A stretch of 21,490 nucleotides of DNA from the IMG/VR virus record IMGVR_UViG_3300042691_000179, positions 1-21,490 of that record. One strand, written 5' to 3'. Origin of the DNA: a virus. Below the pieces are notes generated by a model that saw only the letters and a program-made list of their open reading frames with translations, did no database searches and was not told the DNA's origin. A program made the position numbers and the translations under genes. Numbering within the stretch: the stretch's first letter is position 1; each line of letters opens with the position of its first letter. This document shows, piece after piece, positions 3,311-21,370 of this stretch.

Positions 3311-3637
3311 ATGTCTGACGAGAACCGCATGCAATACCGCAAGCCTACGGACAAAGAAAAAGCAAAACTGAACAAGTCCCGCGAGATGATGCAGCGTGGC
3401 ATCGAAGGCGAGAAAGACTTCCTGTCCAAGATTTCCACCACGATGGCGAAATCGGCTCGTGACGAACAGCGCGAAGCCAAACGCCTACGTGAATCTGTGC
3501 CCGAGCCTGCACGTAACTACGAGGCGCTTGAGGGTATGAAGAAGGGTGGCAAGGTGAAGATGGCTGCTGGCGGTTCCGCTTCCAAGCGTGCTGACGGCTG
3601 TGCCGTTCGTGGCAAAACTCGTGGAAGGATGGTGTAA
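3311..3637 (+). CDS. Small basic protein with C-terminal GG/KTRG tag, copy 1
   Basis: A 108-residue, strongly basic protein with AAGGAGTTAGAC ahead of ATG 3311. Residues 1-73 are a charged helical region (TDKEKAKLNKSREMMQRG; EQREAKRLRESVPE) with no membrane segment. Residues 75-108 form a distinct tail with GMKKGGKVK, MAAGGSASKRADGCA and RGKTRG. Nearly the same tail ends the next gene, while the N-terminal parts of the two proteins are unrelated by eye. A looser version occurs in the third gene. The tail therefore behaves as a mobile module. Function is unknown; packaging tag, DNA-binding tail and processing site are all open. Confidence 0.8.
   Translation: MSDENRMQYRKPTDKEKAKLNKSREMMQRGIEGEKDFLSKISTTMAKSARDEQREAKRLRESVPEPARNYEALEGMKKGGKVKMAAGGSASKRADGCAVRGKTRGRMV
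3533..3634 (+). repeat. C-terminal GG/KTRG tag, copy 1 (34 codons)
   Basis: This stretch codes for the tail GMKKGGKVK-MAAGGSASKRADGCA-RGKTRG. Aligned to the copy at 3847-3951, 29 residues match, with one single-residue gap. Synonymous third-position differences are scattered through the DNA (for example AAGGTG against AAAGTG), so the copies are not a fresh duplication and appear kept by selection on the protein. Confidence 0.85.
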
Positions 3638-3639
3638 CT

Positions 3640-3954
3640 ATGGGCGATAAAGCACTTATGGGTGGGCTGCTTGGTGCGGCTCCTGCGCTGATGGGCAAGA
3701 TTGCTGGCAAAGAAAACGCTGGCTTTGGTCTCGGCATCCTTCCCGGCCTGATGTACAAAGATCAGTACCGCGACAAGCAGAAGGAAAAAGAGGCTGCTCA
3801 GGCTGCAATGAAGGCTGCTCCCGGTGCTGCTAAGGCTGTGCAACCCGGAATGAAGAAGGGTGGCAAAGTGAAGCAGATGGCCTCGGGCGGTTCGGCTTCC
3901 AAGCGTGCTGATGGCTGTGCGCAGCGAGGCAAGACTCGCGGGAAGATCATCTGA
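3640..3954 (+). CDS. Small basic protein with C-terminal GG/KTRG tag, copy 2
   Basis: A 104-residue protein. The N-terminal ~35 residues are hydrophobic and glycine-rich (MGGLLGAAPALMGKIAGK; FGLGILPGLM), possibly membrane-active or buried. An alanine/lysine helix follows (KQKEKEAAQAAMKAAPGAA), then the tag at residues 70-104 (GMKKGGKVKQMASGG, SASKRADGCA, RGKTRGKII). The glycine-rich start resembles in style the hydrophobic stretch of the large protein at 18681. The stop overlaps the next ATG (ATGA). The order of hydrophobic head, helix and basic tail would suit an internal virion or ejection protein, but that is inference. Confidence 0.8.
   Translation: MGDKALMGGLLGAAPALMGKIAGKENAGFGLGILPGLMYKDQYRDKQKEKEAAQAAMKAAPGAAKAVQPGMKKGGKVKQMASGGSASKRADGCAQRGKTRGKII
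3847..3951 (+). repeat. C-terminal GG/KTRG tag, copy 2 (35 codons)
   Basis: Second copy of the tail module, with one extra residue (Gln before MASGG) relative to copy 1. It ends exactly at the end of the coding region, as copy 1 does, so both are true C-terminal modules. A third, more divergent copy is coded at about 4176-4289, with MAAGG, KAADGIA and KKGKTRG, and there it is followed by 15 more residues that include another AKGG unit. Confidence 0.85.
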
Positions 3955-4337
3955 TGCCCGCCGTCAGCGCCAAACAGGAAAAGTTCATGCGGGCTGTGGC
4001 TGAAAACCCCAAGTTCGCAAAGAAGGTGGGTGTTCCACAATCCGTGGGTCGTGAGTTTTCTAAATCTGGAGGTGGTGAAATGAAAGAATCTAAGACGATG
4101 ATGAAGAAGGAAGTGGCTTTCATGAAAAAGAAAGGCGCTCCTAAGTCGATGGTCAAACACGAGATGAAAGAAGCCGGAATGAAGTACGGCGGCATGGCTA
4201 AGAAGCCCGCCAAGAAAATGGCTGCTGGTGGCCTGTCTGCTGGTCACAAGGCTGCTGATGGCATCGCCAAGAAGGGTAAGACCCGTGGCATGGAAGTGAA
4301 GATGGCTAAGGGCGGCATGTCTCGTAAGGGCTGCTAA
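3954..4337 (+). CDS. Small basic protein with DUF3008-like start and divergent GG/KTRG tag
   Basis: A 127-residue, very Lys-rich protein whose ATG overlaps the previous stop by four bases. The first ~37 residues (SAKQEKFMRAVAENPKFAKK, then VGVPQSVGREFSKS) recall the short DUF3008 motif, where a KxQxxFM start is followed by a helix and then VAxEFxxS. Residues 42-73 are a lysine/methionine-rich helix (KESKTMMKKEVAFMKKKG). The tail has YGGMAKK, KKMAAGG, KAADGIAKKGKTRG and a final MAKGGMSRKGC. It thus carries the same tail grammar as the two preceding proteins with a third unrelated N-terminal part. Function unknown; nucleic-acid contact is plausible from charge. Confidence 0.8.
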   Translation: MPAVSAKQEKFMRAVAENPKFAKKVGVPQSVGREFSKSGGGEMKESKTMMKKEVAFMKKKGAPKSMVKHEMKEAGMKYGGMAKKPAKKMAAGGLSAGHKAADGIAKKGKTRGMEVKMAKGGMSRKGC

Positions 4338-4624: not shown

Positions 4625-4887
4625 GTGGACTCGCCAAAAGTCAAAAAAGTCTCAAAGCGTGGACCAAGCAAGAGTGGCAAACCAAAAGCGGTAAGCCCTC
4701 GACGCAAGGCCCAAACGCTACAGGAGAACGTTACCTCCCCAAACGAGCAATCAAGTCCCTCAGCCCCGCCGAATACGCCGCTACAACCCGAGCCAAGCGT
4801 GCAGGAAAAGCCCAAGGCAAACAATTTGTGGCTCAACCTAAAAGCGTGGCTAAAAAGGTTGCTCCGCATAGGAAAATAGGCAAATGA
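4621..4887 (+). CDS. Small basic conserved phage protein (GTG start)
   Basis: An 88-residue basic protein read from GTG 4621, which overlaps the previous TGA as GTGA; a GGTGGGGGG ribosome-like run ends about six bases upstream. An in-frame ATG at 4558 would push it 67 bases into the previous gene and add residues that do not look conserved. Recognisable blocks are WTKQEWQTKSGKPSTQG, ATGERYLPKRAI, LSPAEYAATTRAKRAGK and FVAQPKSVAKK, typical of a small protein widespread in environmental phages. Its function is not known to me. A competing reading frame at 4625-4879 is discarded. It closes the run of basic small proteins, and its stop overlaps the connector gene's ATG. Confidence 0.8.
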   Translation: MSGLAKSQKSLKAWTKQEWQTKSGKPSTQGPNATGERYLPKRAIKSLSPAEYAATTRAKRAGKAQGKQFVAQPKSVAKKVAPHRKIGK

Positions 4888-5627
4888 CAACGTCCGGTAC
4901 CAACTCATTCAATCTTGACCTCAACACGCTTGTGGAAGAGGCGTTCGAGCGTTGCGGGTTGGAACTGCGTTCGGGCTACGACATGCGCACGGCGCGTCGT
5001 TCGTTGAACCTGCTGACGATTGAGTGGGCAAACCGAGGCATCAATCTGTGGACGATTGAGCAGGGCCAGATTGCCATGACGCAGGGGACGATTACGTACC
5101 CTCTGCCCGTGGATACCATCGACCTGCTAGACCACGTTATCCGTACGCAAACAGGCGTAAATCAGACGGACATCAACATCAGCCGTATCAGCGTGGATAC
5201 CTACGCCACGATCCCGAACAAGAATGCTCAGGGTCGTCCAATTCAGGTTTGGATCAACCGTCAGTCCGGTGCACAGTACCCGATCAACGGCAACCAGCCC
5301 AACACGACGAACACTACGACGGGCATCAACCCACCCAACATCAACGTCTGGCCTTGCCCTGACCAGAACAACTACTACACCTTCGTGTATTGGCGGCTGC
5401 GCCGCCTCCAAGACGCTGGTAACGGCGTGAACACGCAGGACATCCCTTTCCGTATGCTGCCTTGCCTCGTGGCTGGGCTGGCGTACTACCTTGCAATGAA
5501 ACTTCCTGATGCTCTACCTCGGCTTGAAATGCTCAAGGCTGCGTATGAGGAACAGTGGGCGTTGGCGGCAAGCGAAGACCGAGAGAAAGCGTCTTTGCGC
5601 ATTGCACCACGACAAATGTTTTATTGA
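4884..5627 (+). CDS. Head-tail connector/adaptor-like protein 1
   Basis: A 247-residue protein. The helical N-terminus, LNTLVEEAFERCGLELRSGY and then RTARRSLNLLTIEWANRGIN, is the helix pair typical of podovirus adaptor proteins of the P22 gp4 or SU10 adaptor kind. A beta-rich middle with aromatic-rich segments follows (INVWPCPDQNNYYTFVYW), then C-terminal helices (LPCLVAGLAYYLAMKLPDAL; EMLKAAYEEQWALAASEDRE). Such proteins dock below the portal and form a ring of the tail. ATG 4884 overlaps the previous TGA. The gene encoding the second adaptor-like protein at 6389 shares this helix-beta-helix plan, so the two may form successive rings. Family membership is judged from pattern, not a search. 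Confidence 0.75.
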   Translation: MTTSGTNSFNLDLNTLVEEAFERCGLELRSGYDMRTARRSLNLLTIEWANRGINLWTIEQGQIAMTQGTITYPLPVDTIDLLDHVIRTQTGVNQTDINISRISVDTYATIPNKNAQGRPIQVWINRQSGAQYPINGNQPNTTNTTTGINPPNINVWPCPDQNNYYTFVYWRLRRLQDAGNGVNTQDIPFRMLPCLVAGLAYYLAMKLPDALPRLEMLKAAYEEQWALAASEDREKASLRIAPRQMFY

Positions 5628-6248: not shown

Positions 6249-6392
6249 ATGCAAAGCAAACCTGTCAAGCAGATTCCGATTGTTCCGAACAACAACGGTT
6301 ACCCCAACAATGTGCCCAACACGCAGACTGTGAAGACTCGTGGCACTGGCGCTGCGATTAAGGGTACCAACTCCAGCAAGAAACTTGCATGA
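6249..6392 (+). CDS. Tiny basic phage protein (47 aa) with TRGTGAA tail
   Basis: A 47-residue protein from ATG 6249, preceded by CGCGGAGGCTGAT; a longer in-frame reading from 6186 is rejected because it overlaps the gene before it. The N-terminal half is Pro/Asn-rich and probably disordered (IPIVPNNNGYPNNVPNTQ). The C-terminal half is a compact basic motif, VKTRGTGAAIKG followed by TNSSKKLA, which recurs in small proteins of other phages as TRGxGAA-KG-SKK. It is a possible relative of the KTRG tails upstream. Its stop overlaps the next ATG. Function unknown. Confidence 0.78.
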   Translation: MQSKPVKQIPIVPNNNGYPNNVPNTQTVKTRGTGAAIKGTNSSKKLA

Positions 6393-7096
6393 ACTACGCT
6401 GAACTGACCGCCGCCATCAAGGCGTACTGCGAAAACGACTTCCCCCAAGCGGTGGGGGCAGGTGGGCTTACGTCCGCCGAGCAGATTGCTCGTTTTGTGC
6501 AGCAGGCGGAACAGCGTATTTTCAACACGGTTCAGTTCCCTTCGATCCGCAAAAACGTCACGGGTAACACCACACTGGGCAACAAGTATCTGTCTGCTCC
6601 GGGTGACTTTCTGGCGGTGTATTCGATGGCGGTGATTGACCCTGTCACCTCTGAGTACTTGTACCTACTCAACAAGGACGTGAACTTCATTCGTGAGGCG
6701 TATCCGTCTCCGAACGATCAGGGCAAACCCTACTATTACGCATTGTTCGGGCCGACCACTACGAACAACGTGCCGCCTGTCATCACGAACGAACTGACGT
6801 TCCTGCTTGGCCCGACTCCTGATGCTGCATACAGCGTTGAGTTGCACTACTACTATTACCCCGAGTCGATCACGACTGCTTCTTCTGGGCAGACGTGGCT
6901 CGGTGACAACTTTGATTCTGTCTTGCTTTATGGCGCAATGCTCGAAGCCGCGACGTTCATGAAGTCCGACAAGGACGTGATGGACAACTACATGGCGCGT
7001 TATAACGAAGCGTTGGGCTTGGCGAAACGACTTGGTGATGGCATGGAGCGTCAAGACGCTTACAGGTCTGGTCAAGTACGAGTTCCTGTGAGGTAA
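6389..7096 (+). CDS. Head-tail connector/adaptor-like protein 2
   Basis: A 235-residue protein. It starts with a helical YAELTAAIKAYCENDF segment and a second helix IARFVQQAEQRIFNTVQFPS. A beta-rich core follows (YLSAPGDFLAVYSMAV; SVELHYYYYPESI). C-terminal helices end it (LLYGAMLEAATFMKSDKDVM; MARYNEALGLAKRLGDGMER). This matches the adaptor/tail-tube-A-like protein often annotated in short-tailed phages (SU10-type adaptor, distantly T7 gp11-like) that sits between portal and nozzle. Its ATG overlaps the previous TGA (ATGA). With the related protein at 4884 it gives this phage two such candidates. Assignment rests on pattern and context. Confidence 0.78.
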   Translation: MNYAELTAAIKAYCENDFPQAVGAGGLTSAEQIARFVQQAEQRIFNTVQFPSIRKNVTGNTTLGNKYLSAPGDFLAVYSMAVIDPVTSEYLYLLNKDVNFIREAYPSPNDQGKPYYYALFGPTTTNNVPPVITNELTFLLGPTPDAAYSVELHYYYYPESITTASSGQTWLGDNFDSVLLYGAMLEAATFMKSDKDVMDNYMARYNEALGLAKRLGDGMERQDAYRSGQVRVPVR

Positions 7097-7098
7097 TC

Positions 7099-7515
7099 AT
7101 GGCATTCACTGGGAACTTCACTTGCAACGTCTTTAAGACCGGACTCATCAACGGCGACTTTGATTTCGGCGTTGGGACGACTGATGTCTACAAGATTGCC
7201 CTCTACACCAATGCGGCGACGTTGAATCAAGACACAACCGCGTACACGACTGCTGGTGAAGTTGTTGCCTCTGGCTATACGGCTGGGGGTAACGTGTTAA
7301 CTCCGACAGTGGGAGGCCCGGATGGGACGGCGTTTATTTCGTTTGCCAATACGTCTTGGTCTGGTGCCTTCACGGCACGAGGGGCGCTGATCTACAAAAA
7401 CGGTGGGGCAGCGGTTTGTGTTTTGGACTTTGGTGCAGATCGGACTTCGACGCTAACGTTCCAAGTTCAGTTCCCGCCTAGTTCTGCAAGTTCAGCAATT
7501 ATTCGGATTTCTTAA
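7099..7515 (+). CDS. Small structural protein (138 aa)
   Basis: A 138-residue protein with low charge and high Gly/Thr/Ala content. Blocks such as DVYKIALYTNAATLNQDTTA, GEVVASGYTAGG and RGALIYKNGGAAVCVLDFG look like a beta-sandwich virion protein, a type common in phage structural clusters. ATG 7099 follows GAGGTAATC, whose TAA is the previous stop. It shares a general layout with the next protein (both have a TAT-like start of a beta domain and an aromatic strand), so the pair may be related, but I cannot align them convincingly. Role: minor head/tail or fibre-base protein, inferred from position. Confidence 0.72.
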   Translation: MAFTGNFTCNVFKTGLINGDFDFGVGTTDVYKIALYTNAATLNQDTTAYTTAGEVVASGYTAGGNVLTPTVGGPDGTAFISFANTSWSGAFTARGALIYKNGGAAVCVLDFGADRTSTLTFQVQFPPSSASSAIIRIS

Positions 7516-7525
7516 GGAGCATGAA

Positions 7526-8110
7526 ATGATTAACAACAAAGCAAAGTCCACCGACAAGGTCTTCTCTGAAGTCTTGGGTGGTGGCGCATCGGAAGAGCGC
7601 GTTCGCGGTGGCGGCGTGTTTTTCTTTGAGTGCCGTGACAAAGACGGCAACCTCAAGTGGAAAGAAGAGTCTAAGAACCTTGTTGTGAACGTCGGTCTCA
7701 AAGACATGAACGACAAGTATTTCACTGGCACAACCTACACGGCAACGTGGTATCTGGGTTTGATTACCGGTCCGGGTTCTGGCACGACGATTGATGCTGG
7801 CGACACGATGGCGACCCATGCAGGTTGGACTGAAGCAACGGCTTACAGCCAATCGACTCGTCCTGCTTGTACGTTTGGTGCGGCTACCACTGCTGATCCT
7901 TCTGTCATCAGCAACTCGGCTTCTGTGGCTGTGTTCAGCATCAACGGCACCGTGACGATTGCTGGTGCATTCCTGACCAGCAACAACACCAAGGGTGGCA
8001 CTACCGGCATTCTGTTCTCGGCTTCTGACTTCCAATCGCCCGGTGACCGTGCGGTGGTGTCGGGCGACACGCTGAACGTGACCTATCAATTCAGCCTCGA
8101 CGCTGCGTAA
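7526..8110 (+). CDS. Structural protein (194 aa)
   Basis: A 194-residue protein. Residues ~28-57 hold a charged block (GVFFFECRDKDGNLKWKEES and then KNLVVNVGLKDMNDKYF) that I recognise from phage proteins found between connector and fibre genes. Following it is a low-charge beta domain with WYLGLITGPGSGTTIDAGD, an ATHAGWTEATAYSQSTRP block and a C-terminal SGDTLNVTYQFSLDAA. ATG 7526 follows AAGGAGCATGAA; a nearer ATG at 7521 stops after two codons. Probably a minor virion protein connecting tail and appendages; the exact role is not visible. Confidence 0.75.
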   Translation: MINNKAKSTDKVFSEVLGGGASEERVRGGGVFFFECRDKDGNLKWKEESKNLVVNVGLKDMNDKYFTGTTYTATWYLGLITGPGSGTTIDAGDTMATHAGWTEATAYSQSTRPACTFGAATTADPSVISNSASVAVFSINGTVTIAGAFLTSNNTKGGTTGILFSASDFQSPGDRAVVSGDTLNVTYQFSLDAA

Positions 8111-8119
8111 GGAGAAAAC

Positions 8120-8299
8120 ATGGCTACCAAATTTACCAAAGGTCAAAACGTCAAACTCGTTTCTGTTGCTCCGCAAGGCCCGGTTGTTGCCCTGCGCATG
8201 GACGAGAATGGCACGTTCTTCTACCTCGTGGAGTGGACTGACGAGGCTGGCGTGAAGCATCAACGCTGGTTTGAAGAGGCGCAACTCGCCGCTGCGTAA
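8120..8299 (+). CDS. Mini-protein with SH3-like YodC/DUF2158-type pattern (59 aa)
   Basis: A 59-residue protein from ATG 8120 to TAA 8297-8299, preceded by TAAGGAGAAAAC. It reads as one small beta barrel: FTKGQNVKLVSVAPQGPVVA, then FFYLVEWTDEAG, then HQRWFEEAQL. The order (basic start, V-x-L strand, GPV turn, W-aromatic strand, acidic turn, FxEAxL end) resembles small SH3-like proteins of the YodC/DUF2158 type. It could bind protein or nucleic acid. It lies between a structural protein and the repeat protein, so a virion or assembly role is likely. The family link is tentative. Confidence 0.72.
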   Translation: MATKFTKGQNVKLVSVAPQGPVVALRMDENGTFFYLVEWTDEAGVKHQRWFEEAQLAAA

Positions 8300-8302
8300 G
8301 GA

Positions 8303-9385
8303 ATGTACGGACTACTGCCCTACTCGACTGCGCCATACTCATCGCTTTCCGGTGCTGTTTATGCTGCGACAGTCGCTGAATCCGCCAATGCCTCAGACAC
8401 TCTGAGCGCACTGGCAACGTTCGCCTCCTCAATCACTGAGAGTGCGACGGGGGCAGATTCCATTTCCGCACGGGTTGTCTTTACAACCTCCATCACTGAG
8501 TCGGCAACCGCAACCGACACCATCTTCGGCAGCGTCACCTATGTGGTGTCTGTCGTTGAACTGGTTACCGCCACAGACACGACCTCCGCCAAGGTTGACT
8601 TCGGCGGCAGCATCCTTGAGGCTGCGACAGGCTCTGACATTGCTAGTGCCAGCGTAGTCTTTGAAGGGGCTATTGCTGAAACTGTGACGGCATCGGAAAC
8701 GGTGGTCGCTCGGGTGGTCTTTGTCTCGACGGTCAACGAGACCGCAACGGGTTCAGACAGCATTTCTGCTGGCGTATCGGTCAACGCTCAGGCTTCCGAG
8801 CAAGCCACAGCCTCTGATGCAGCCTCTGCTGGTGTCATATTCGGCGCGAACGTCGATGAGTCTGCAACTGGCTCTGAGCAGGTCTCTGCGGCAATTGACT
8901 TTGGCGGTTTGATTACAGAGTCCGCGACGGTTTCCGAACTGGTTTCTGCCATCGCTACGTTCGTCGCTACAGCGGCTGAAAGCGCCACTGCTGCTGATGA
9001 GGTGTCTGCGTCGTTTGCGTTTGCAACCAACATTATTGAGTCTGCGACAGCATCTGATGCGCCATCCGCTGGCGTTGTGTTTATTGTTGCCGTCGATGAG
9101 GCCGCAGCAGCCAACGATCTGATTAGCGGGGCGCTTGATTTCGGCGTTTTGGTGCAGGAAAGCGCGTCTGGCTCTGATACAACTGCTACGTTGCCTATTT
9201 ACGCCGTTAGGATTTCTGAGATCGCAGCAGCGTCTGACAGCATTCTGGGTCGCTTGCTGTGGGAAATCATCAACGACAGCCAGCCGGGGACTTGGAACAC
9301 CATCAGCGCACAGAATGGCGGCACTTGGAACGTGATTAACACGTCGGACCCAACTACTTGGAATGTCATAAAGACATCGAACTAA
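8303..9385 (+). CDS. Tandem 20-residue-repeat appendage protein
   Basis: A 360-residue acidic protein with a simple plan. It has an 18-residue N-terminus (MYGLLPYSTAPYSSLSG), then fifteen units of exactly 20 residues, then 42 residues at the C-terminus with three TWN units spaced 11 residues apart. A repeat unit reads like VFTTSITESATATDTIFGSV; the best-kept positions are the hydrophobic/aromatic pair at 1-2, E8, A10-T11 and D14/E14, then S/A around 16-18. There is no Cys and only a few positive residues. The strict periodicity suggests a beta-solenoid or stacked-strand fibre shaft, with the W-containing C-terminus as a cap or tip. It opens the host-recognition region, directly ahead of five fibre genes. 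The ribosome site is poor (AAGGA adjoins the ATG), so coupling to the previous gene is probable. Confidence 0.85.
   Translation: MYGLLPYSTAPYSSLSGAVYAATVAESANASDTLSALATFASSITESATGADSISARVVFTTSITESATATDTIFGSVTYVVSVVELVTATDTTSAKVDFGGSILEAATGSDIASASVVFEGAIAETVTASETVVARVVFVSTVNETATGSDSISAGVSVNAQASEQATASDAASAGVIFGANVDESATGSEQVSAAIDFGGLITESATVSELVSAIATFVATAAESATAADEVSASFAFATNIIESATASDAPSAGVVFIVAVDEAAAANDLISGALDFGVLVQESASGSDTTATLPIYAVRISEIAAASDSILGRLLWEIINDSQPGTWNTISAQNGGTWNVINTSDPTTWNVIKTSN
8357..9256 (+). repeat. Fifteen 60-base tandem repeats coding 20-residue units
   Basis: Codons 19-318 of the repeat protein divide without gaps into fifteen 20-codon units, with no frame slip or indel across 900 bases. 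Units differ considerably in DNA and moderately in protein (compare VFTTSITESATATDTIFGSV with DFGGSILEAATGSDIASASV). This is old, diverged duplication held in phase by protein structure, not a recent expansion. It is not a CRISPR: there are no unique spacers and the unit is fully coding. Confidence 0.9.
9290..9382 (+). repeat. Three 11-residue TWN repeats at the C-terminus of the repeat protein
   Basis: Residues 330-360 read as TWNTISAQNGG, TWNVINTSDPT and TWNVIKTSN. Each unit places a Trp-Asn pair on an 11-residue period, unlike the 20-residue period before it. The short W-rich strands could form a cap or a sugar-facing tip. Confidence 0.82.
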
Positions 9386-9386
9386 T

Positions 9387-9857
9387 ATGCCACTTGTCGT
9401 CAAAGATCGCGTCCGAGAAACATCCACCACCGCAGGTACTGGGACGTTCACGCTTGCTGGTGCGGTGACGGGGTTCCAGTCGTTTTCTGCGATTGGCAAC
9501 GGGAACACCACGTTCTATACCATTGCTGGGCAGGGTACGAGCGAGTGGGAGGTGGGTGTCGGCACCTACACCTCCTCTGGTACTACGCTGTCCCGAGACT
9601 CCGTGCTGGCTTCCAGTGCCTCTGGGGCTAAAGTTAACTTTTCGGCTGGCACCAAGGATGTGTTTGTTACGTACCCCGCAGGGCGTACACTGACTGGTGG
9701 GGGTGGTGGTATTGGTGCGCTAGTTGTCAATGCGACCACAGTGACGGAAAATTACACTGTTGAAAGTGGCACGAACGCCCAGTCTGTCGGTCCGGTTACT
9801 GTTGCGAGCGGAGTGTCTGTAACGGTTTCTTCTGGACAACGTTGGTTGGTCGTGTAA
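9387..9857 (+). CDS. Tail fibre protein 1 with C-terminal QRWLV module
   Basis: A 156-residue protein. The first ~100 residues (MPLVVKDRVRETSTTAGTG, AVTGFQSFSAIGNGNTTFYT, SSGTTLSRDSVLASS, FSAGTKDVFVTYPAGR) are a phage tail-fibre domain that I recognise from many environmental phages. A Gly-rich hinge (LTGGGGGIG) follows. The last 34 residues form a module ending SGQRWLVV, found again at the end of the next gene. ATG 9387 lies one base after the previous stop with no clear ribosome site, implying translational coupling. It is short for a fibre and may be an adaptor or tip segment. Confidence 0.8.
   Translation: MPLVVKDRVRETSTTAGTGTFTLAGAVTGFQSFSAIGNGNTTFYTIAGQGTSEWEVGVGTYTSSGTTLSRDSVLASSASGAKVNFSAGTKDVFVTYPAGRTLTGGGGGIGALVVNATTVTENYTVESGTNAQSVGPVTVASGVSVTVSSGQRWLVV
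9753..9854 (+). repeat. C-terminal fibre module, copy 1
   Basis: Codes for the last 34 residues of fibre protein 1, with SVGPVTVASGVSVTV and SGQRWLVV as its core. Copy 2 at 10522-10623 ends the next gene; 23 of 34 residues are identical with no gap. Both copies reach the stop codon directly. Confidence 0.85.
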
Positions 9858-10636: not shown

Positions 10637-11266
10637 ATGGCAGTGACAATTAACGGTGATGGCGTAGTTGATGTCGGAGGTAATGCCTCTAGCGCCGCTA
10701 AAGTGCGTCTGTATGAAGATTCAGATAACGGCACAAACTACATTGATCTGATTGCTCCGGCTTCTGTCGCAAGTAATCGGACAATTACTTTGCCTGATGA
10801 AACCGGAACGCTACTGACAACGGGTTCCACATTTGCCGGAACTGGCCCTGCCTTCTATGCGTATCAACTTACTGCTCAAACTGGTGTTACGCAGTTGACG
10901 GCAACCAAAATTACCTTTGATGCAGAGGTATTTGACACAAACAATAACTTTGCGTCGAGCAGGTTTACTCCGACGGTTGCTGGCTACTATCAATTCAGTT
11001 TTGGCGTTTCAATACCATCGGCAAACTCAGGTGCATTTTGTCAGGCAACTATTAGAAAAAATAACTCTACGGATACAAATGGAGCCGCGTCACTTGGTCA
11101 AAGCGGAACCCTGTACCCCCAGTCCGTTGGCTCTGTTCTTTTGTATATGAATGGCTCAACCGATTATGTCGAAGTCAACATTTACGGAACAGCCCCGGGT
11201 AATTATTCTATTTTGAATGGAATTTATTGCACCTTCTTTATGGGCGCACTTGTGAGGGCCGCATGA
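10637..11266 (+). CDS. Tail fibre protein 3 with C1q-like C-terminal domain
   Basis: A 209-residue protein preceded by TAAGGAGATAAAT. Residues 1-70 are a short shaft domain ending in TITLPDETGTLLTTGS, a module also present in the fibre at 11443. Residues ~73-209 look like a C1q/TNF-like jelly roll: FYAYQLTAQTGVTQLTATKI, then FTPTVAGYYQFSFGVSIPS, then ATIRKNN and a hydrophobic end CTFFMGALVRAA. The Y-x-F strand after TPTVAGYY is the signature of C1q-like domains, which trimerise and bind ligands. The C-terminal part is visibly richer in A and T than the genes around it, suggesting recent import of the receptor-binding domain. Its stop overlaps the next gene. Confidence 0.82.
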   Translation: MAVTINGDGVVDVGGNASSAAKVRLYEDSDNGTNYIDLIAPASVASNRTITLPDETGTLLTTGSTFAGTGPAFYAYQLTAQTGVTQLTATKITFDAEVFDTNNNFASSRFTPTVAGYYQFSFGVSIPSANSGAFCQATIRKNNSTDTNGAASLGQSGTLYPQSVGSVLLYMNGSTDYVEVNIYGTAPGNYSILNGIYCTFFMGALVRAA

Positions 11267-12323: not shown

Positions 12324-12359
12324 ATGCCCAGCATAATCAACAGTGTGAGGATTGAATGA
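12324..12359 (+). pseudogene. Detached first codons of a fibre gene (11-residue leader)
   Basis: An ATG at 12324 with a perfect AAGGAG six bases upstream opens a frame of only 11 residues that begins MPSIIN and stops at 12357-12359. The fibre gene beyond the endonuclease begins MPSILN at 12957. The 18 bases 12324-12341 and 12957-12974 match at 15 positions. The stop of the short frame overlaps the endonuclease ATG 12356 (ATGA), so its translation would couple to the endonuclease. The simplest reading is that it is the original start of the fibre gene, cut off by the insertion. A deliberate leader peptide cannot be excluded. Confidence 0.65.
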
Positions 12360-12964
12360 CAGCCAGACTGCCAACGGAAGTTTGTCATCTGTACCGCATT
12401 ACTGATACGGTACGGGGCAAGTTTTACATTGGCAAACATCGTGGCTCAGAAAAATCTTCATATTGGGGAAGCGGAAGACGAATTCGATCTCATGTAAAAA
12501 AGTACGGCTCTCAAGACCTTATTTACGAAATACTGGTGATTGGAACCGAGGAGTACATTTATGAAATCGAGAAAAAATATGTCACGGATGAATTTATTGC
12601 ATCCAATTCAAACTGTTTAAACCTTTGTGCTGGCGGTATTGGCGGCAACATGGGTCACGGTGCTTGGAACAAAGGGAAAAAATGGGATGACGCCGCCAAA
12701 GAAAAAATGAGGCTGGCAAAACTTGGAAAGGTTAGTCCACGCAAAGGGGCGGTTAATAGCCCAGAGCATCGTTTAAAAATTAGTCTTGCTCGTGTGGGTA
12801 AAGTTTGCATTACCGAAGAAGCGAGAAAAAAGTTAAGCGCGATTAACAAAGGAAAAGTTTGGGAAAGGGTGGATTGCCCTCATTGCGGCAAGTCTGTTCC
12901 TTGGCATATGCGTAACCAAAAGCATTTCGATAAATGCGAAAGAAAGGATTTTAACTATGCCTAG
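12356..12964 (+). CDS. GIY-YIG homing endonuclease with NUMOD3 motifs and Cys/His C-terminus
   Basis: A 202-residue protein. The N-terminal domain has CHLYRIT (10-16) and FYIGKH (23-28) in place of a standard GIY/YIG pair. YWGSGRRI follows near 36-43, and a Glu-rich helix YIYEIEKKYV (67-76) should hold the metal ligand. Several NUMOD3-like GKxxxxxxxxK units lie near 107-167 (NKGKKWDDAAKEKMRLAKLG; SPEHRLKISLARVGK; TEEARKKLSAINKGK). The C-terminus has CPHC (174-177) with later His and Cys (HMRNQKHFDKC), a zinc-finger-like end common in phage endonucleases. The gene is plainly more A/T-rich than its neighbours. The last codons overlap the fibre start ATG 12957, and GAAAGGATTTTAACT provides that start's ribosome site. 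It differs in subtype from the endonuclease at 1629. Confidence 0.9.
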   Translation: MTARLPTEVCHLYRITDTVRGKFYIGKHRGSEKSSYWGSGRRIRSHVKKYGSQDLIYEILVIGTEEYIYEIEKKYVTDEFIASNSNCLNLCAGGIGGNMGHGAWNKGKKWDDAAKEKMRLAKLGKVSPRKGAVNSPEHRLKISLARVGKVCITEEARKKLSAINKGKVWERVDCPHCGKSVPWHMRNQKHFDKCERKDFNYA

Positions 12965-15408: not shown

Positions 15409-17259
15409 ATGGCTCTGCAACGCCTCCAGTTCAAACCCGGTGTAAACCGCGACCAGACTAACTATGCTGGCGAGGGGGGCTACTACGAGTGCGATAAGGT
15501 TCGCTTCCGCTCGGGTTATCCCCAGAAGTTGGGTGGATGGCTTCGCTACGGTGTATTCACGTTGGCAGGTGTGTGCCGTCAGATGTACAACTACATCACC
15601 ACCGAGTCCGACAACATCATGTGTCTGGGTACCAGCGAGAAGGCATACCTTGAGGTGGGTGGTAACCTAATTGACGTTACGCCGCTACGTACAACTTTTA
15701 CGTCTCCGGCTACAAACAACTGCTTTGATACCACCAATGGCTCGGCTACTGTTCGTGTCAACATCATCAACCACGGTGCCATCGACGGCGACTGGGTGAC
15801 TTTTTCTGGTGTTGTCGGTCCGGTCAATGGCATCCCTGCGTCGGAGTTGAATGCTGAGTTCCAGATTGTTTACATCGACCAAGACAACTTCGACATCACG
15901 GTAACCACTCCGGCAACAAGCACCGGCTCTGGTGGTGGCACGGCTATCGTCGCTGCCTTCCAGATCAACATTGGTTCGCCTACGGGCACGGTGGGTTACG
16001 GTTGGAGTGCGGGTACTTGGAGCCGTGGTACTTGGGGTTCAGGCACGATCACCCCTATTTACACCCCGCAGCGCGACTGGTTCTTCGACAACTTCGACAA
16101 CGACGCGGTGATGAACATCCGTCAAGGCCCGATCTACTGGTGGGTGTACGACCCAACCTTTACGACTCGTGCTGTGCTGCTGTCGTCGCTGACCGGGGCT
16201 AGTGCTGTTCCCGTTGCGGCTATGCAAGTGCTGGTCTCGCAGAACGACAAGCACCTGCTGGCATTTGGCTGTGTGCCGTTTGGTTCGTCCTCCGTTTCCG
16301 ACTTTGATCCTCTTCTTATCCGTTGGGCAAACCAGAACGATCCGGTCAACTGGACTCCGACTGCAACAAACACCTCGGGCTTCCTGCGTGTGTCTCGTGG
16401 TTCGCGCATCATTCGCGCTATCCCTACCCGTCAAGAAATCTTGGTCTTCACGGACTCGCACCTCTACTCCTTGCAGTTCTTGGGTACAACGGATGTGTTT
16501 GGCTTGCAGGAGATGGGTGACAACATCTCCATCATGGGGCCACGGTCTTGCGCCACTGCCAACAACGTGACGTACTGGATGGGTACGGACAAGTTTTACT
16601 ACTACTCAGGTCGTGTGGAGACTCTCCCCTGCACCCTGCGTAACCACGTTTTTCAGAACTTCAACTACGACCAAGCCCAGCAGGTCGTGTGTGGCACCAA
16701 CGAGGGTTGGCACGAGATTTGGTGGTTCTACCCAACTGCCAACTCGCCTACCAACGATGCCTACGTTGTGTACAACTACTTGGAAAAGGTGTGGTTCTAC
16801 GGCTCGCTTCCGCGCACGGCTTGGCTTGACTCGGCTTTGCGCCAGTACCCGCAAGCGGTTGGCAACTACCAGATGTTTGACCATGAGCGTGGGGTCAACG
16901 ACGATGTGTTGCCGATGACTTCGTTCATCACGACCAACGACTTTGATGTGGGTGACGGCGAGAACTTGCTGCTTATCAAGCGCATACTGCCTGACATCAA
17001 CTTTGAAGGTTCCACCGCAGCCAACCCGCAGATTCTGCTGACTATGCGTCCGCGTAACTTCCCGGGTAGCAACTACAGCAGCACCAACCAGCCTACGGTT
17101 ACTCAGAGTACGACGGTACCTGTAGAACAGTACACCGAGCAGGTATTCATCCGCGCCCGTGCACGGCAGATGGGGTTCAAGATTCAGTCAACTGACTTGG
17201 GCGTGCAGTGGCAACTCGGCGCACCTCGTTTGGATGGTCGTCCAGATGGCAAGAGATAA
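15409..17259 (+). CDS. Tail nozzle / DNA stabilisation-type protein
   Basis: A 616-residue protein. The start (LQRLQFKPGVNRDQTNYAGE, then GGYYECDKVRFRSGYPQKLG) and the end (GVQWQLGAPRLDGRPDG) are features of the large nozzle or stabilisation protein of short-tailed phages, similar in role to P22 gp10 or T7 gp12. The middle has blade-like repeats of the kind expected of a beta-propeller (IPTRQEILVFTDSHLYSLQF; GTNEGWHEIWWFYP; AYVVYNYLEKVWFYGSLP). Residues ~95-215 hold a Thr/Gly-rich insert (FDTTNGSATVRVNIINHGAI; GYGWSAGTWSRGTWGSGT) that may be an inserted surface domain. It would form the distal tail tube through which DNA exits. It follows the endolysin by two bases. Confidence 0.82.
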   Translation: MALQRLQFKPGVNRDQTNYAGEGGYYECDKVRFRSGYPQKLGGWLRYGVFTLAGVCRQMYNYITTESDNIMCLGTSEKAYLEVGGNLIDVTPLRTTFTSPATNNCFDTTNGSATVRVNIINHGAIDGDWVTFSGVVGPVNGIPASELNAEFQIVYIDQDNFDITVTTPATSTGSGGGTAIVAAFQINIGSPTGTVGYGWSAGTWSRGTWGSGTITPIYTPQRDWFFDNFDNDAVMNIRQGPIYWWVYDPTFTTRAVLLSSLTGASAVPVAAMQVLVSQNDKHLLAFGCVPFGSSSVSDFDPLLIRWANQNDPVNWTPTATNTSGFLRVSRGSRIIRAIPTRQEILVFTDSHLYSLQFLGTTDVFGLQEMGDNISIMGPRSCATANNVTYWMGTDKFYYYSGRVETLPCTLRNHVFQNFNYDQAQQVVCGTNEGWHEIWWFYPTANSPTNDAYVVYNYLEKVWFYGSLPRTAWLDSALRQYPQAVGNYQMFDHERGVNDDVLPMTSFITTNDFDVGDGENLLLIKRILPDINFEGSTAANPQILLTMRPRNFPGSNYSSTNQPTVTQSTTVPVEQYTEQVFIRARARQMGFKIQSTDLGVQWQLGAPRLDGRPDGKR

Positions 17260-17261
17260 CC

Positions 17262-18638
17262 ATGACACTCATCAAGCGATTCGTTGCTCCGGCTCTGCCC
17301 ATACCGAACGTAGAGTACGACCAGCGGGAGCAGACCGACCTCATCCGAGCGTTGCGACTCTACTTCAACTTGCTGGACGATTATCTCAACCAGATCACAA
17401 ACGAGGTTAATGACGGTATGGACCCATTCTCACCCACATCGCTCGATGCGTTCGGTAGGCTGCGGTCTAGTGAGCCTTACACCCTGTTTGATAGCCAGAA
17501 CCGCTACGCTGCTGATAACCAGTTTGATGCCGCCACGACGGGCACTGGCACGACAACTTTCCTCTCCAACGAGGCTGCAATCAAGATGGAGGTCACTGGG
17601 GCTGGTGTTGGCTCGGTGACCCGCCAGTCTTATCGCTCGTTCCCGTACCAGCCGGGTAAGGGACTGCTGGTGCTTGCGACTTTTGTGATGGACTCCAGCA
17701 CGAGTGCCAACTTGACGCAAAGCGTGGGTTACTTTAACGACAGCAATGGTGTATTTTTCAAGAATACGGGTGGCGTGTATTCGTTTGTCCTACGCTCCAG
17801 TTCTACTCCTACCCCCGGCACGCCGAGCGACATCCGCACGGTCAATCAAGCCGATTGGAATGGCGACAAACTTGATGGCACTGGGGCTTCCGGCCTGACG
17901 CTTGATCCAAGCAAAGCGCAGATTCTTTGGATGGACTTTGAATGGCTGGGTGTTGGTTCGGTGCGCTGCGGTTTCATCATTGATGGAGCGTACGTTGTTT
18001 GCCATACCTTTGAAAACGCTAATGACATCACGTCGGTCTACATGACCACTGCCATCTTGCCAGTGCGGTATTCAATTACCAGCACAACCGCTGCCGTGGC
18101 TGCGTCGATGAAAGCCATCTGCTGCACAGTCATTTCCGAGGGCGGCTTTCAACAAACGTCAATTGACCATGTGGCAAGACGCACAACGGTACTCACTAAC
18201 ATTGATACCGCATCGACGTTTTACCCTGTTGTCTCTATTCGCATGGCGTCTGGGCGTACGGGGTCAGTTGTACTACCCAATCGGACGCAGTTTTTGCCAT
18301 TGACTAGCCAGAACTATGAAGTGGTTCTTTTGAAGAATCCGACGTTGACTGGAGCAACATGGGCTGCAACTGTGCCAAGTGACAGCAACGTTGAGTTTGA
18401 TGTTGCGGCAACGGCAATTTCCAGTGTCGGTACGATTGCTCAGACGGACTACGTCACTGCTACAGGTAGCGGCGGGGTAGGCGCTACAGCCACCCCGACT
18501 GGGTATAACTGGGATTTGCAGTTAGGCGTGTCACTTGCCGGGGTGAGCGACATATACACACTAGCCGTTCGTACTGTGGATGGTGCGACTAAAGGTAGCG
18601 GAGTGGGTTCCCTATCTTTTTACGACCTAACACAATGA
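17262..18638 (+). CDS. Large tail appendage protein
   Basis: ATG 17262, two bases after the nozzle stop, is the sensible start; the in-frame extension to 17208 lies inside the nozzle gene. The product has 458 residues. A short helical N-terminus (RALRLYFNLLDDYLNQITNE) precedes FGRLRSSEPYTLFDSQNRYA, a motif I recognise from a large family of phage appendage proteins with a PYTLFDSQNRY core. Beta-sheet blocks follow (SYRSFPYQPGKGLLVLATFV; ILWMDFEWLGVGSVRCGFI; MASGRTGSVVLPNRTQFLPL). The beta-rich plan and place after the nozzle suggest an attachment or fibre protein at the tail end. There is no S74 or peptidase motif. Confidence 0.82.
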   Translation: MTLIKRFVAPALPIPNVEYDQREQTDLIRALRLYFNLLDDYLNQITNEVNDGMDPFSPTSLDAFGRLRSSEPYTLFDSQNRYAADNQFDAATTGTGTTTFLSNEAAIKMEVTGAGVGSVTRQSYRSFPYQPGKGLLVLATFVMDSSTSANLTQSVGYFNDSNGVFFKNTGGVYSFVLRSSSTPTPGTPSDIRTVNQADWNGDKLDGTGASGLTLDPSKAQILWMDFEWLGVGSVRCGFIIDGAYVVCHTFENANDITSVYMTTAILPVRYSITSTTAAVAASMKAICCTVISEGGFQQTSIDHVARRTTVLTNIDTASTFYPVVSIRMASGRTGSVVLPNRTQFLPLTSQNYEVVLLKNPTLTGATWAATVPSDSNVEFDVAATAISSVGTIAQTDYVTATGSGGVGATATPTGYNWDLQLGVSLAGVSDIYTLAVRTVDGATKGSGVGSLSFYDLTQ

Positions 18639-18680: not shown

Positions 18681-20468
18681 ATGCAATATCCCACAATTGC
18701 CCAACCACAATTCGCATTCGCCCCCACTTTTGCTGGAGGCGGGCTGGCTAACGCCGCGCAGGCAGTTCAGTCTCGGGGTCGCGGCAACGACACCATGCTG
18801 GTTCACATGACCCCCGGCGAGGTAAAGGGGTTGCAGGCACTGGCGTTGGCGCATGGCGGTTCCCTAACAATCAACCCTGCTACGGGTTTACCCGAAGCCG
18901 GATTCCTCGACGCTATCCTGCCTATCGTGGCGGGTTTTGCACTTGGCCCTGCTGGTTTTGCTCTGATGTCTGCCCCGATGGCGGCGCTGACTGTGGGTGG
19001 CGTAACGGCTTTGAGCACGGGCGACCTCGGCAAAGGCCTGATGGCGGGTCTGGGCGCATTCGGCGGTGCTAACCTTGGTGCCGCTCTGTCGTCTACGGGT
19101 ACTGAAGCAGCCAAAACAGCAATGTTGCCTAGTGGCGGTATGTCTGTCGCAGAAAGCATCCCCGCCAGTATGGGCGGTACGGGTGCTACGACAGGTTCTA
19201 CGCTTGCGGACATCACTGGAAAAGCGGCTTCTGCGTCTGGTCCGATGTCGATGGCTCCGTGGGCACAACCCAGCGTAGCCTCTCAACTGGGCGTTTCTTC
19301 CGCTCCGGTGGCAATGACGCCGTCTCAAGTGGCGGCTTTGCAATCGACGGCTCCGACTGGGTTCAGTAGTGTTGGCTCAGGCATTGCTGACTTGGCTTCC
19401 CCCGGTGGTTTTTCCCGTTTTGGTAACGCATTCATGAATGCTTCCGGCGGCGGTATGGGTACGGCTATGGGTGCGTACGGTATGGCGGCTCCTGTTTTGG
19501 ACGCAGTTCAGCCTTCCTACGAGTTTCCTAACGTTGCCGAAGCCACCAGTTCTAACTATGCAGGGCCATACGTACCGACCCCCCGTGAGGTACGGTTCAA
19601 GCCTGAAGATGACACCAGCACTTCGGAGTTCACCTACTTCACCCCGTCTAACCCTGTTCCGGGGTATCAGCCAATGAATGCTGCGGCTGGTGGTTACATG
19701 CAACGCTACCAAGAAGGTGGTGAGGTCATGCCGCGAGTGAGCGACATGGTGCGTCCTGCTCCTGAAGTCATTCAGACGCTGCCCGCTGTACCTGAGTCAG
19801 CCAATCAGGGGATGACTGCCTCGTTGTTCAATAAAAACTTTCTTGGTGCCGAGCCTGCCAATTTGACCGAGCATAGTGGTATGGAGAGCATGGTGCGCTA
19901 CCAAGAGGGTGGCAACGTTGAAGATCGCGCCCTGCGTATGCCTGCTGACCTCAGCCGTGTCGGGACTGCACCTGAGTTCAATCACAATTTCCGCCCCATC
20001 GAGGTGATGGCTCCTGCCCAAAGTGCTGCCCCTGAACCTGCTGGTTTCGGTGGCCTCATCTCGCGTGCGATGCGAGACATCTTTGACCGTGAGGGGAAGT
20101 CCAATTACACCGACTTGTCCAAGTTCAAGTACGACCCCAACACCCAACGCATGGTGCCGATGGCACAAGGTGGACTGGCTGCGCTCAATGCCTACAACAA
20201 AGGCGGCACCCCTGTGGGTGGTCGTTTCCTGCAAGGAGCAGGCGACGGCACTAGCGACTCTATCCCCGCCACGATAGGCGGAAGTCAACCAGCACGTCTG
20301 GCTGATGGCGAGTTTGTGGTGGATGCTCGCACTGTGTCCGAGATTGGTAACGGCTCTTCTAAGGCTGGTGCCAAGAAGTTGTACGCCATGATGGAGCGTG
20401 TGCACAGCGCACGCAAGAAAGCCAAGCGTGGTCAGGACACTAAAGCAGACAGGTACTTGCCAGCATGA
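18681..20468 (+). CDS. Glycine-rich probable internal/ejection protein
   Basis: From ATG 18681 the product has 595 residues; an upstream in-frame TTG 18675 lies nearer to GAGGA (18666-18670), so the start is uncertain by two codons. The first part has RGRGNDTMLVHMTPGEVKGL and ALAHGGSLTINPATGLPEAG, blocks I have seen in similar phage proteins. A hydrophobic glycine/alanine segment follows (FLDAILPIVAGFALGPAGFA, about 74-93), possibly membrane-inserting. The middle is low complexity with YQEGGEV, YQEGGNV and MAQGGLA units. The end, GGRFLQGAGDGTSDSIPATI followed by ARLADGEFVVDARTVSEIGN, is a widely seen phage C-terminus. Size, hydrophobic segment and place after the tail genes suggest an ejected virion protein; this is inference. 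Confidence 0.75.
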   Translation: MQYPTIAQPQFAFAPTFAGGGLANAAQAVQSRGRGNDTMLVHMTPGEVKGLQALALAHGGSLTINPATGLPEAGFLDAILPIVAGFALGPAGFALMSAPMAALTVGGVTALSTGDLGKGLMAGLGAFGGANLGAALSSTGTEAAKTAMLPSGGMSVAESIPASMGGTGATTGSTLADITGKAASASGPMSMAPWAQPSVASQLGVSSAPVAMTPSQVAALQSTAPTGFSSVGSGIADLASPGGFSRFGNAFMNASGGGMGTAMGAYGMAAPVLDAVQPSYEFPNVAEATSSNYAGPYVPTPREVRFKPEDDTSTSEFTYFTPSNPVPGYQPMNAAAGGYMQRYQEGGEVMPRVSDMVRPAPEVIQTLPAVPESANQGMTASLFNKNFLGAEPANLTEHSGMESMVRYQEGGNVEDRALRMPADLSRVGTAPEFNHNFRPIEVMAPAQSAAPEPAGFGGLISRAMRDIFDREGKSNYTDLSKFKYDPNTQRMVPMAQGGLAALNAYNKGGTPVGGRFLQGAGDGTSDSIPATIGGSQPARLADGEFVVDARTVSEIGNGSSKAGAKKLYAMMERVHSARKKAKRGQDTKADRYLPA

Positions 20469-21370
20469 TGGAACTACAGATAAGCACTCTATGGATTGAG
20501 CGGCTTTTGAAGAAGCCCTTCCATAAGCATTGTCTGTTGGGGGACAAGAAGTTCTTCGATCCCTATTCCTTCCCGGTAGCAAAAGAGTTGGAAGACAATT
20601 TTCCAGCCATTCAAGCCGAACTTAAAGACATCCTTAAGCGTTACGACGACTTCGCTCCGTTTCAAAGCATCTCGCCTGACCAGACTTACATCTCCAACGA
20701 CGACAAGTGGCGAATGTTTTTCTTTAAGGCGGCTGGGGTGAACTTCGGACGCAACCAACAATTTGCACCAAAGACCTTCGAGATTCTGAACAAACACAAG
20801 TATGTAATTTCAGCCTACATATCTGTGCTTGGTCCCCATAAAATGCTCATGCCGCATGAAGGTCCGTGGTCTGGCATTCTGCGTATGCACTTGGGGGTGG
20901 TTATCCCCGGCAACAAAGAGTGCACGTTGGTCAACGGTGGCGAGAAGTACCACTGGGAGGAAGGCAAGGTAGTCCTGTTTGACGATACGTACGAGCACAT
21001 TGCTGTGAACGAAACCGATCAGATTCGGGCTATCCTATTCTTGGATGTGATGCGTCCCTTGCCGCAACCGTGGAAGTTCATCAACTGGGCGATCCTGCGC
21101 CTGTCGGTTCTGTTTCCGTATATTTGGATTCCGTACTTCCGGCACAAGCGATGGGAGAAGCGGTTCTACGGAGAAAAAGAATGCAATGCACAATGGTCCC
21201 TAGCGAGCACGTTAAAGAAATTTGGAGCCAAGTTGAAGGCTACCTCGAAGGGGCTGCTGAGTACACTCATGGTCGGTATGACGTGGATGACATCTACGAC
21301 TCGATCATGGGCTACGACCATACGCTCTGGATTGCTTTCACGGACGAAGGCATCAAAGGGGCAGTCGTGA
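20465..21370 (+). CDS. Aspartyl/asparaginyl beta-hydroxylase-like dioxygenase with doubtful 3' end
   Basis: From ATG 20465 the frame codes 301 residues; 1-238 form the believable protein. Its core resembles aspartyl/asparaginyl beta-hydroxylases (Fe(II)/2-oxoglutarate enzymes). Visible parts are MPHEGPWSGILRMHLGV (129-145) with iron ligand His131 and Gly133 where other families have Asp, ECTLVNGGEKYHWEEGKVV (152-170), and FDDTYEHIAVN (172-182) with the second ligand His178. Arg188, ten residues later, matches the spacing of the 2-oxoglutarate-binding Arg in human AspH. A hydrophobic WKFINWAILRLSVLFPYIW segment follows. After GEKE (~residue 239) the frame reads across the next gene in another phase and looks like noise. 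The ATG overlaps the previous stop. Substrate unknown. Confidence 0.82.
   Translation: MMELQISTLWIERLLKKPFHKHCLLGDKKFFDPYSFPVAKELEDNFPAIQAELKDILKRYDDFAPFQSISPDQTYISNDDKWRMFFFKAAGVNFGRNQQFAPKTFEILNKHKYVISAYISVLGPHKMLMPHEGPWSGILRMHLGVVIPGNKECTLVNGGEKYHWEEGKVVLFDDTYEHIAVNETDQIRAILFLDVMRPLPQPWKFINWAILRLSVLFPYIWIPYFRHKRWEKRFYGEKECNAQWSLASTLKKFGAKLKATSKGLLSTLMVGMTWMTSTTRSWATTIRSGLLSRTKASKGQS

Follow-up and report, generated by a model that had tools for sequence, protein, structure and literature searches.

A putative fibre shaft of adjustable length, built from 20-residue repeats, in a group of uncultured tailed phages

Introduction

The window analysed here, an IMG/VR viral contig of 21,490 nucleotides, contains an open reading frame of 360 amino acids (positions 8303-9385, + strand) whose translation consists largely of a single 20-residue motif repeated without interruption. 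The locus raises the question of what such a protein builds and whether its length can change only by whole repeat units. Relatives were sought by scans of IMG/VR, which yielded 67 loci, and a further set was recovered through the motif IINDSQ...W; together they amount to about 90 contigs, many of which are closely redundant.

Results

Architecture of the repeat protein

The N-terminal residues 1 to 18 (MYGLLPYSTAPYSSLSGA; 8303..8356, +), here termed the anchor, are rich in aromatic residues and proline and are conserved as the first segment of almost every relative. Repeat analysis resolved residues 19 to 318 (8357..9256, +), the shaft, as an uninterrupted series of fifteen 20-residue units, as the original prediction had it. 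The C-terminal tip (residues 319 to 360; 9257..9382, +) consists of four 11-residue Trp units (LWEIINDSQPG, TWNTISAQNGG, TWNVINTSDPT, and TWNVIKTSN) with the tryptophans at W320, W331, W342, and W353. The 11-residue period proposed for this end is real, but it starts at W320 and comprises four units instead of the 31 residues claimed.

Within the shaft, E8 and D/E14 are present in 15/15 units each, A10 in 13/15, and T11 in 11/15, in agreement with the unit core named beforehand; F/Y2 (14/15) and I/V6 (13/15) are conserved as well. The self-identity of the protein is 0.39, 0.39, and 0.39 at lags of 20, 40, and 60 residues, and the top self-identity at any lag in 2000 shuffles of the sequence was 0.22; the repeat far exceeds chance. 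The mean identity between units is 37% at the protein level and 49% at the DNA level. Since the units are diverged, adjacent units (39% identity) are about as unlike as remote ones (37%), and identity is lowest at codon position 3 (33%; the first and second positions reach 57% and 56%), the array stems from an old duplication maintained by selection at the protein level. The expectation that the units are not recent copies was thus upheld. Compared with close relatives, the gene has a dN/dS of 0.11-0.17: purifying selection maintains the repeat protein.

The protein is strongly acidic, with a net charge of -34, and of low-complexity composition. Searches against Pfam-A and PHROG profiles returned 0 families at E <= 1, a profile search of PDB chains gave nothing but a chance match (E 0.62), and a search of the accessible literature found no description of this repeat.

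Variation in unit number among relatives

Nearly all relatives follow one plan, in which a start of the form M[FYL]G..PF..APF..L.G is followed by 20-residue units and then by LWEIINDSQ with 11-residue Trp units. In the anchor, A10, P11, and G17 are nearly or fully invariant in the A2 relatives; in the tip, W320, I323-Q327, and W331 are invariant in 27 relatives, and most relatives carry 3, 4, or 6 Trp units. The number of whole units between these ends is 0, 5, 6, 7, 10, 11, 15, 16, 17, 20, 25, or 48, as derived from the anchor-to-tip distance, the counts for the most diverged relatives (L059, L117, L172, L175, L177, and L179) being estimates within about one unit. A comparison of unit number across relatives had been proposed beforehand, and it gave unit numbers from 0 to 48 that differ by whole units, with both ends kept. 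In the zero-unit relative (L089:2679-2867), the anchor is joined directly to the Trp tip; on this single 4-kb contig, the gene occupies the same slot, between the p644 gene described below and a fibre gene.

The exact 20-residue phase is found in the clade of the window and in many other clades. Several 11-unit clades and L067 contain additions of one or two residues, so that spacings of 21 or 42 residues occur at corresponding sites, and the units concerned often carry a VxVAxSxFNA-like motif around F2. As read from the alignments, these exceptions are defined variant units common to clades and not random slips; the phase is broken rarely and by clade-specific additions, not freely. Three relatives (L172, L175, and L177) have another flavour of unit (SITENVTLADSSTQ..., E-N-x-x-x-x-D), and their repeat gene is located after the first fibre gene.

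Unit-by-unit alignment revealed how the proteins differ in length. L126 is without four of the fifteen units present in L013, and L014 has five units more than the window protein. L017 (16 units) and L024 (25 units) have identical adaptors; DNA identity is 96% between unit 15 of L017 and unit 24 of L024 and 100% between units 16 and 25, while a nine-unit block, absent from L017, and a unit exchange set the two apart. Inside the 48-unit relative L039, there are unit copies at distances of nine units (92% DNA identity) and five units (85%). On the adaptor-protein tree (61 rows), a minimum of 17 unit-number changes was counted. According to the alignments, whole units and blocks of units have been gained and lost repeatedly, by which the shaft itself would be lengthened or shortened; in this way, these viruses appear to adjust how long one of their appendages is. 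A search of the accessible literature on length variation of phage fibres gave no relevant result. The counts 5, 10, 11, 15, 16, 20, and 25 had suggested a five-unit super-repeat; this idea was discarded, as unit similarity has no five-unit period and neither the counts 6, 7, 17, and 48 nor differences of 4, 9, and 23 units are compatible with it.

Outside IMG/VR, tblastn searches of isolate phages with the window protein, a 48-unit relative, a 20-unit relative, and a Trp tail gave a weak match to phage DSL-LC04 alone, where the low-complexity filter of BLAST may mask some matches. In bacterial and archaeal genomes, no relative was found with the peptide WEIINDSQ as the sole seed.

Gene neighbourhood

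The tail-fibre module of this tailed phage includes the repeat gene. Upstream are a head-tail adaptor gene (6389..7096, +; Pfam SU10_adaptor PF24175, E 1.3e-24) and two genes of unknown-function families, PHROG 644 (p644; 7099..7515, +) and PHROG 8123 (p8123; 7526..8110, +). The product of the gene immediately downstream (9387..9857, +) resembles tail fibres at its C-terminus (PHROG 5342, tail fiber protein, E 3.3e-6), and genes with matches to tail-fibre PHROGs lie downstream of the repeat gene. Among testable loci, which are mutually non-independent, the adaptor gene is near the repeat gene in 70/75, p644 lies within 1.5 kb in 78/86, p8123 is nearby in 77/86, and the fibre-like gene comes next in 67/79. 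This order is usual among the relatives and agrees with the original prediction, which put the gene first in the fibre array. An additional ORF of 59 amino acids (MATKFTKGQNVKLVSVAPQ...WFEEAQLAAA; 8120..8299, +), whose ATG is preceded by AAGGAG, is conserved in the clade to which the window belongs and ends 3 bases ahead of the start of the repeat gene, with which it is probably co-translated; in clades where p8123 abuts the repeat gene, there is no room for it. The same tail module contains two genes of the adaptor family PF24175, the first being at 4884-5627 (+; E 9e-7).

In L023, L138, L151, L172, and L175, the repeat gene is relocated and is still found among fibre genes. In place of the anchor, L030 has a Gly-rich, fibre-like protein with a weak tail-fibre PHROG match, to whose C-terminus the shaft is fused. 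The two types of anchor (PF-type and WG-type) were mapped onto the trees of the adaptor, p644, and p8123, where they change 2, 4, and 3 times, respectively, with few WG lineages and with rows that differ per tree; none of the three was singled out as docking partner.

In Escherichia phage SU10, the long tail fibre is formed by gp12-gp13, whose genes are numbered just after that of adaptor gp11, and its N-terminal segments are located on this adaptor (PMC9509320). The repeat gene resembles this long tail fibre, which stands directly after the adaptor, in its position, and the window's adaptor matches the Pfam family named after SU10, whereas 20-residue units with a Trp-unit end distinguish the repeat protein; SU10 was not among the matches when isolate phages were searched with the repeat protein and its relatives. 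Among named phages, the module is most closely related to that of DSL-LC04, metagenome-assembled from Dishui Lake (PMC10611076), with 62.8% identity for the 17250-18635 protein. Its protein WJZ48131.1 likewise occupies the slot after the p644 gene, has a W-rich anchor, and ends in 11-residue 'DDSQ...W' units, but its anchor is of the WG type and its shaft consists of approximately 22-residue VTGV units in place of the 20-residue E/D units. A weak match (E 0.01) suggests that the ends of the two proteins are homologous.

Conservation within the unit and predicted structure

Statistics for each unit position were obtained from 330 units in 55 aligned windows, taken from the window protein and its relatives. 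Even positions carry on average approximately 2.3 bits of information versus 1.3 at odd ones. Specifically, the informative even positions are F2, S/V/A4, V/I6, E8, A10, A/G12, D14, V/I16, A18, and V/A20, whereas the odd positions are largely polar and variable. Consistently, substitutions among close relatives affect 88/750 even and 174/750 odd positions. This alternation resembles that of buried and exposed residues in β-strands. E8 and D14 share the conserved even parity with the hydrophobic residues, apart from the variable polar odd positions, and because both lie on that parity, they may have a structural role, as turn caps or as a metal ladder, rather than forming a variable binding surface. 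Coupling between neighbouring units at the same position was indicated in a first pass and disappeared against a same-protein null (mean Z of 0.43 on the diagonal and 0.30 off it); covariation between neighbouring units did not indicate any single strand arrangement.

AlphaFold2 was run on the monomer with a full-length alignment and, separately, with an alignment of 55 register-true six-unit windows plus the tip. Mean pLDDT values were 52 and 50, and pTM values were 0.45 and 0.41, respectively. At this low confidence, the two models agree in featuring regular β-strands with a 20-residue period, a turn near positions 9 to 13, and no helix, and disagree in strand length (up to approximately 17 residues versus 5 to 10). 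The models are regular β-structure instead of disorder throughout, at a pLDDT of about 50. Monomer prediction would be expected to fail for an intertwined homotrimer, but also for other things.

A Foldseek search of the PDB gave weak solenoid-like matches alone, with a probability of 0.11 or less and a query TM of 0.28 or less; among them was the curli subunit CsgA (E 0.047, probability 0.11). Among predicted viral proteins, an uncharacterised one from an uncultured phage matched best (E 9e-5), but the model is too poor to be interpreted. Of the β-solenoid or fibre shaft envisaged originally, the shaft with whole-unit length change has stood, while a solenoid is only a candidate fold at this pLDDT and with matches this weak.

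Known repeat folds were compared with the unit. The triple β-spiral of the adenovirus type is defined by a repeat of approximately 15 residues with a conserved Gly/Pro turn; it was rejected, as the unit has 20 residues, no conserved Pro at any position, and conserved Gly only at position 12, in 38% of the 330 units. The repeats of CsgA are defined by a conserved Gln/Asn/Gly ladder in each repeat. CsgA and right-handed β-helices share with the repeat protein approximately 20 residues per repeat, an all-β structure (predicted at low confidence for the repeat protein), and the weak structural matches, but their sequence hallmarks are absent and no score was convincing: a Gln/Asn ladder was found at no unit position in the 330 units, the conserved letters being F2, V/I6, E8, A10, A/G12, and D14, and a curli-type repeat was rejected. 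Because the repeat family has no Pfam or PHROG entry and no PDB sequence relative, its fold may be new.

Discussion

We consider it reasonably probable that the repeat gene encodes a tail-appendage (fibre) protein with a spacer shaft, carried by an uncultured tailed phage that is probably short-tailed. This reading is favoured because whole-unit counts from 0 to 48 occur between the same ends and the models have a regular 20-residue β period, because the gene follows an SU10-type adaptor and precedes fibre genes, among which moved copies remain, and because the shaft is joined to a fibre-like protein in L030. Against it count the low confidence of the models, the lack of any match to a family of known function, and covariation that favours no single strand arrangement; gene position alone is no proof of a role in the virion. 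In the proposed arrangement, the aromatic and proline-rich N-terminus would dock on the tail, presumably on the adaptor or on a protein next to it, and the 20-residue β units would build a rod-like shaft. Viral fibres are usually trimeric, and from this usual make-up the shaft is probably a homotrimer. The 11-residue Trp units would cap the rod or join it to the next fibre segment. As a spacer, the part between the ends could shrink, grow to 48 units, vanish, or be of another repeat type, as in DSL-LC04.

The number of shaft repeats also varies among the serotypes of adenovirus, whose fibre shares with the repeat protein a short N-terminal anchoring peptide (residues 7-19 were traced on the penton base; PMC3386624), a repeat-built shaft, and a distinct distal end. 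The likeness is one of working principle without homology, and the repeat protein differs in its 20-residue unit, the absence of a conserved Pro/Gly turn, and its 11-residue Trp tip.

Several other readings were weighed. The protein might be a needle or a channel plug at the centre of the tail instead of a peripheral fibre, its anchor inserted in the tail channel and its shaft protruding along the axis; trimeric needles occur in short-tailed phages, the repeat gene is a single copy in the tail module, and the SU10 needle is 260 Å long with a β-prism end (PMC9509320). This is unlikely, as the needle body of SU10 and P22 is a coiled coil (PMC9509320), both AlphaFold2 models being without helix, and SU10 needle gp18 is numbered after nozzle gp17, whereas the repeat gene follows the adaptor. 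Placement on the capsid, as a head fibre or decoration, seems more doubtful still: repeat-built rods do serve as head fibres elsewhere, such as Orsay virus delta (PMC7565637), and a capsid gene lies within the same window, but the repeat gene stands between adaptor and fibre genes, away from that capsid gene.

The remaining two readings concern the shaft itself. The low-complexity composition, the net charge, the low AlphaFold2 confidence, and the weak match to CsgA would suit a protein with no unique rod fold, either a flexible linker rich in acidic residues and Ser/Thr or an adhesive string of the amyloid-like (curli) type. Against it stand the strict 20-residue phase (a linker would tolerate partial units), the invariant E8 and D/E14, the alternating conservation, the low dN/dS, and the lack of the curli-type ladder, and we judge it to be about as improbable as a needle. 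That every unit offers a weak receptor- or sugar-binding site, with binding growing stronger as units are added, is very improbable: an acidic, Ser/Thr-rich motif does recur in every unit, but E8 and D14 share the conserved parity beside hydrophobic residues, and L089 exists without any unit.

Within the fibre-shaft reading, a more specific version is put forward tentatively, as one that may well prove wrong: a modular appendage with an undescribed shaft fold, a fixed anchor and Trp tip, and an exchangeable repeat cassette (0 to 48 units, of either the 20-residue E/D or the 22-residue VTGV type) in which the addition, deletion, or replacement of whole units outpaces the divergence of the neighbouring tail genes. 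The plan of anchor, shaft, and tip is of a known viral fibre kind; what is new is the unit, the range from 0 to 48 in one slot, and the other type of unit in DSL-LC04. The relatives provide a natural series, from no shaft to 48 units, in one gene slot of otherwise closely related tails. With this series, the relation of appendage length to phage adsorption becomes testable, as does the way in which repeat-built fibres change length without breakage.

Other genes of the window

Three consecutive small lysine-rich ORFs (3311-4337, +) have a common ADGxAxxGKTRG-like motif near their C-termini and gave no match in a Pfam search. Two putative homing endonucleases are encoded, one after the capsid gene (1593-2219, +; GIY-YIG domain PF01541, E 1.3e-6) and one inside the fibre cluster (12356-12964, +; NUMOD3, PF07460, E 1.1e-5). 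A fibre-region protein (10637-11266, +) contains a C1q-like domain (PF00386, E 1.7e-4, which falls narrowly short of the curated cut-off). The gene at 20465-21370 (+) encodes an aspartyl/asparaginyl β-hydroxylase domain (PF05118, E 9.7e-41), and the fibre region of DSL-LC04 likewise has a 2OG-Fe(II) oxygenase gene.
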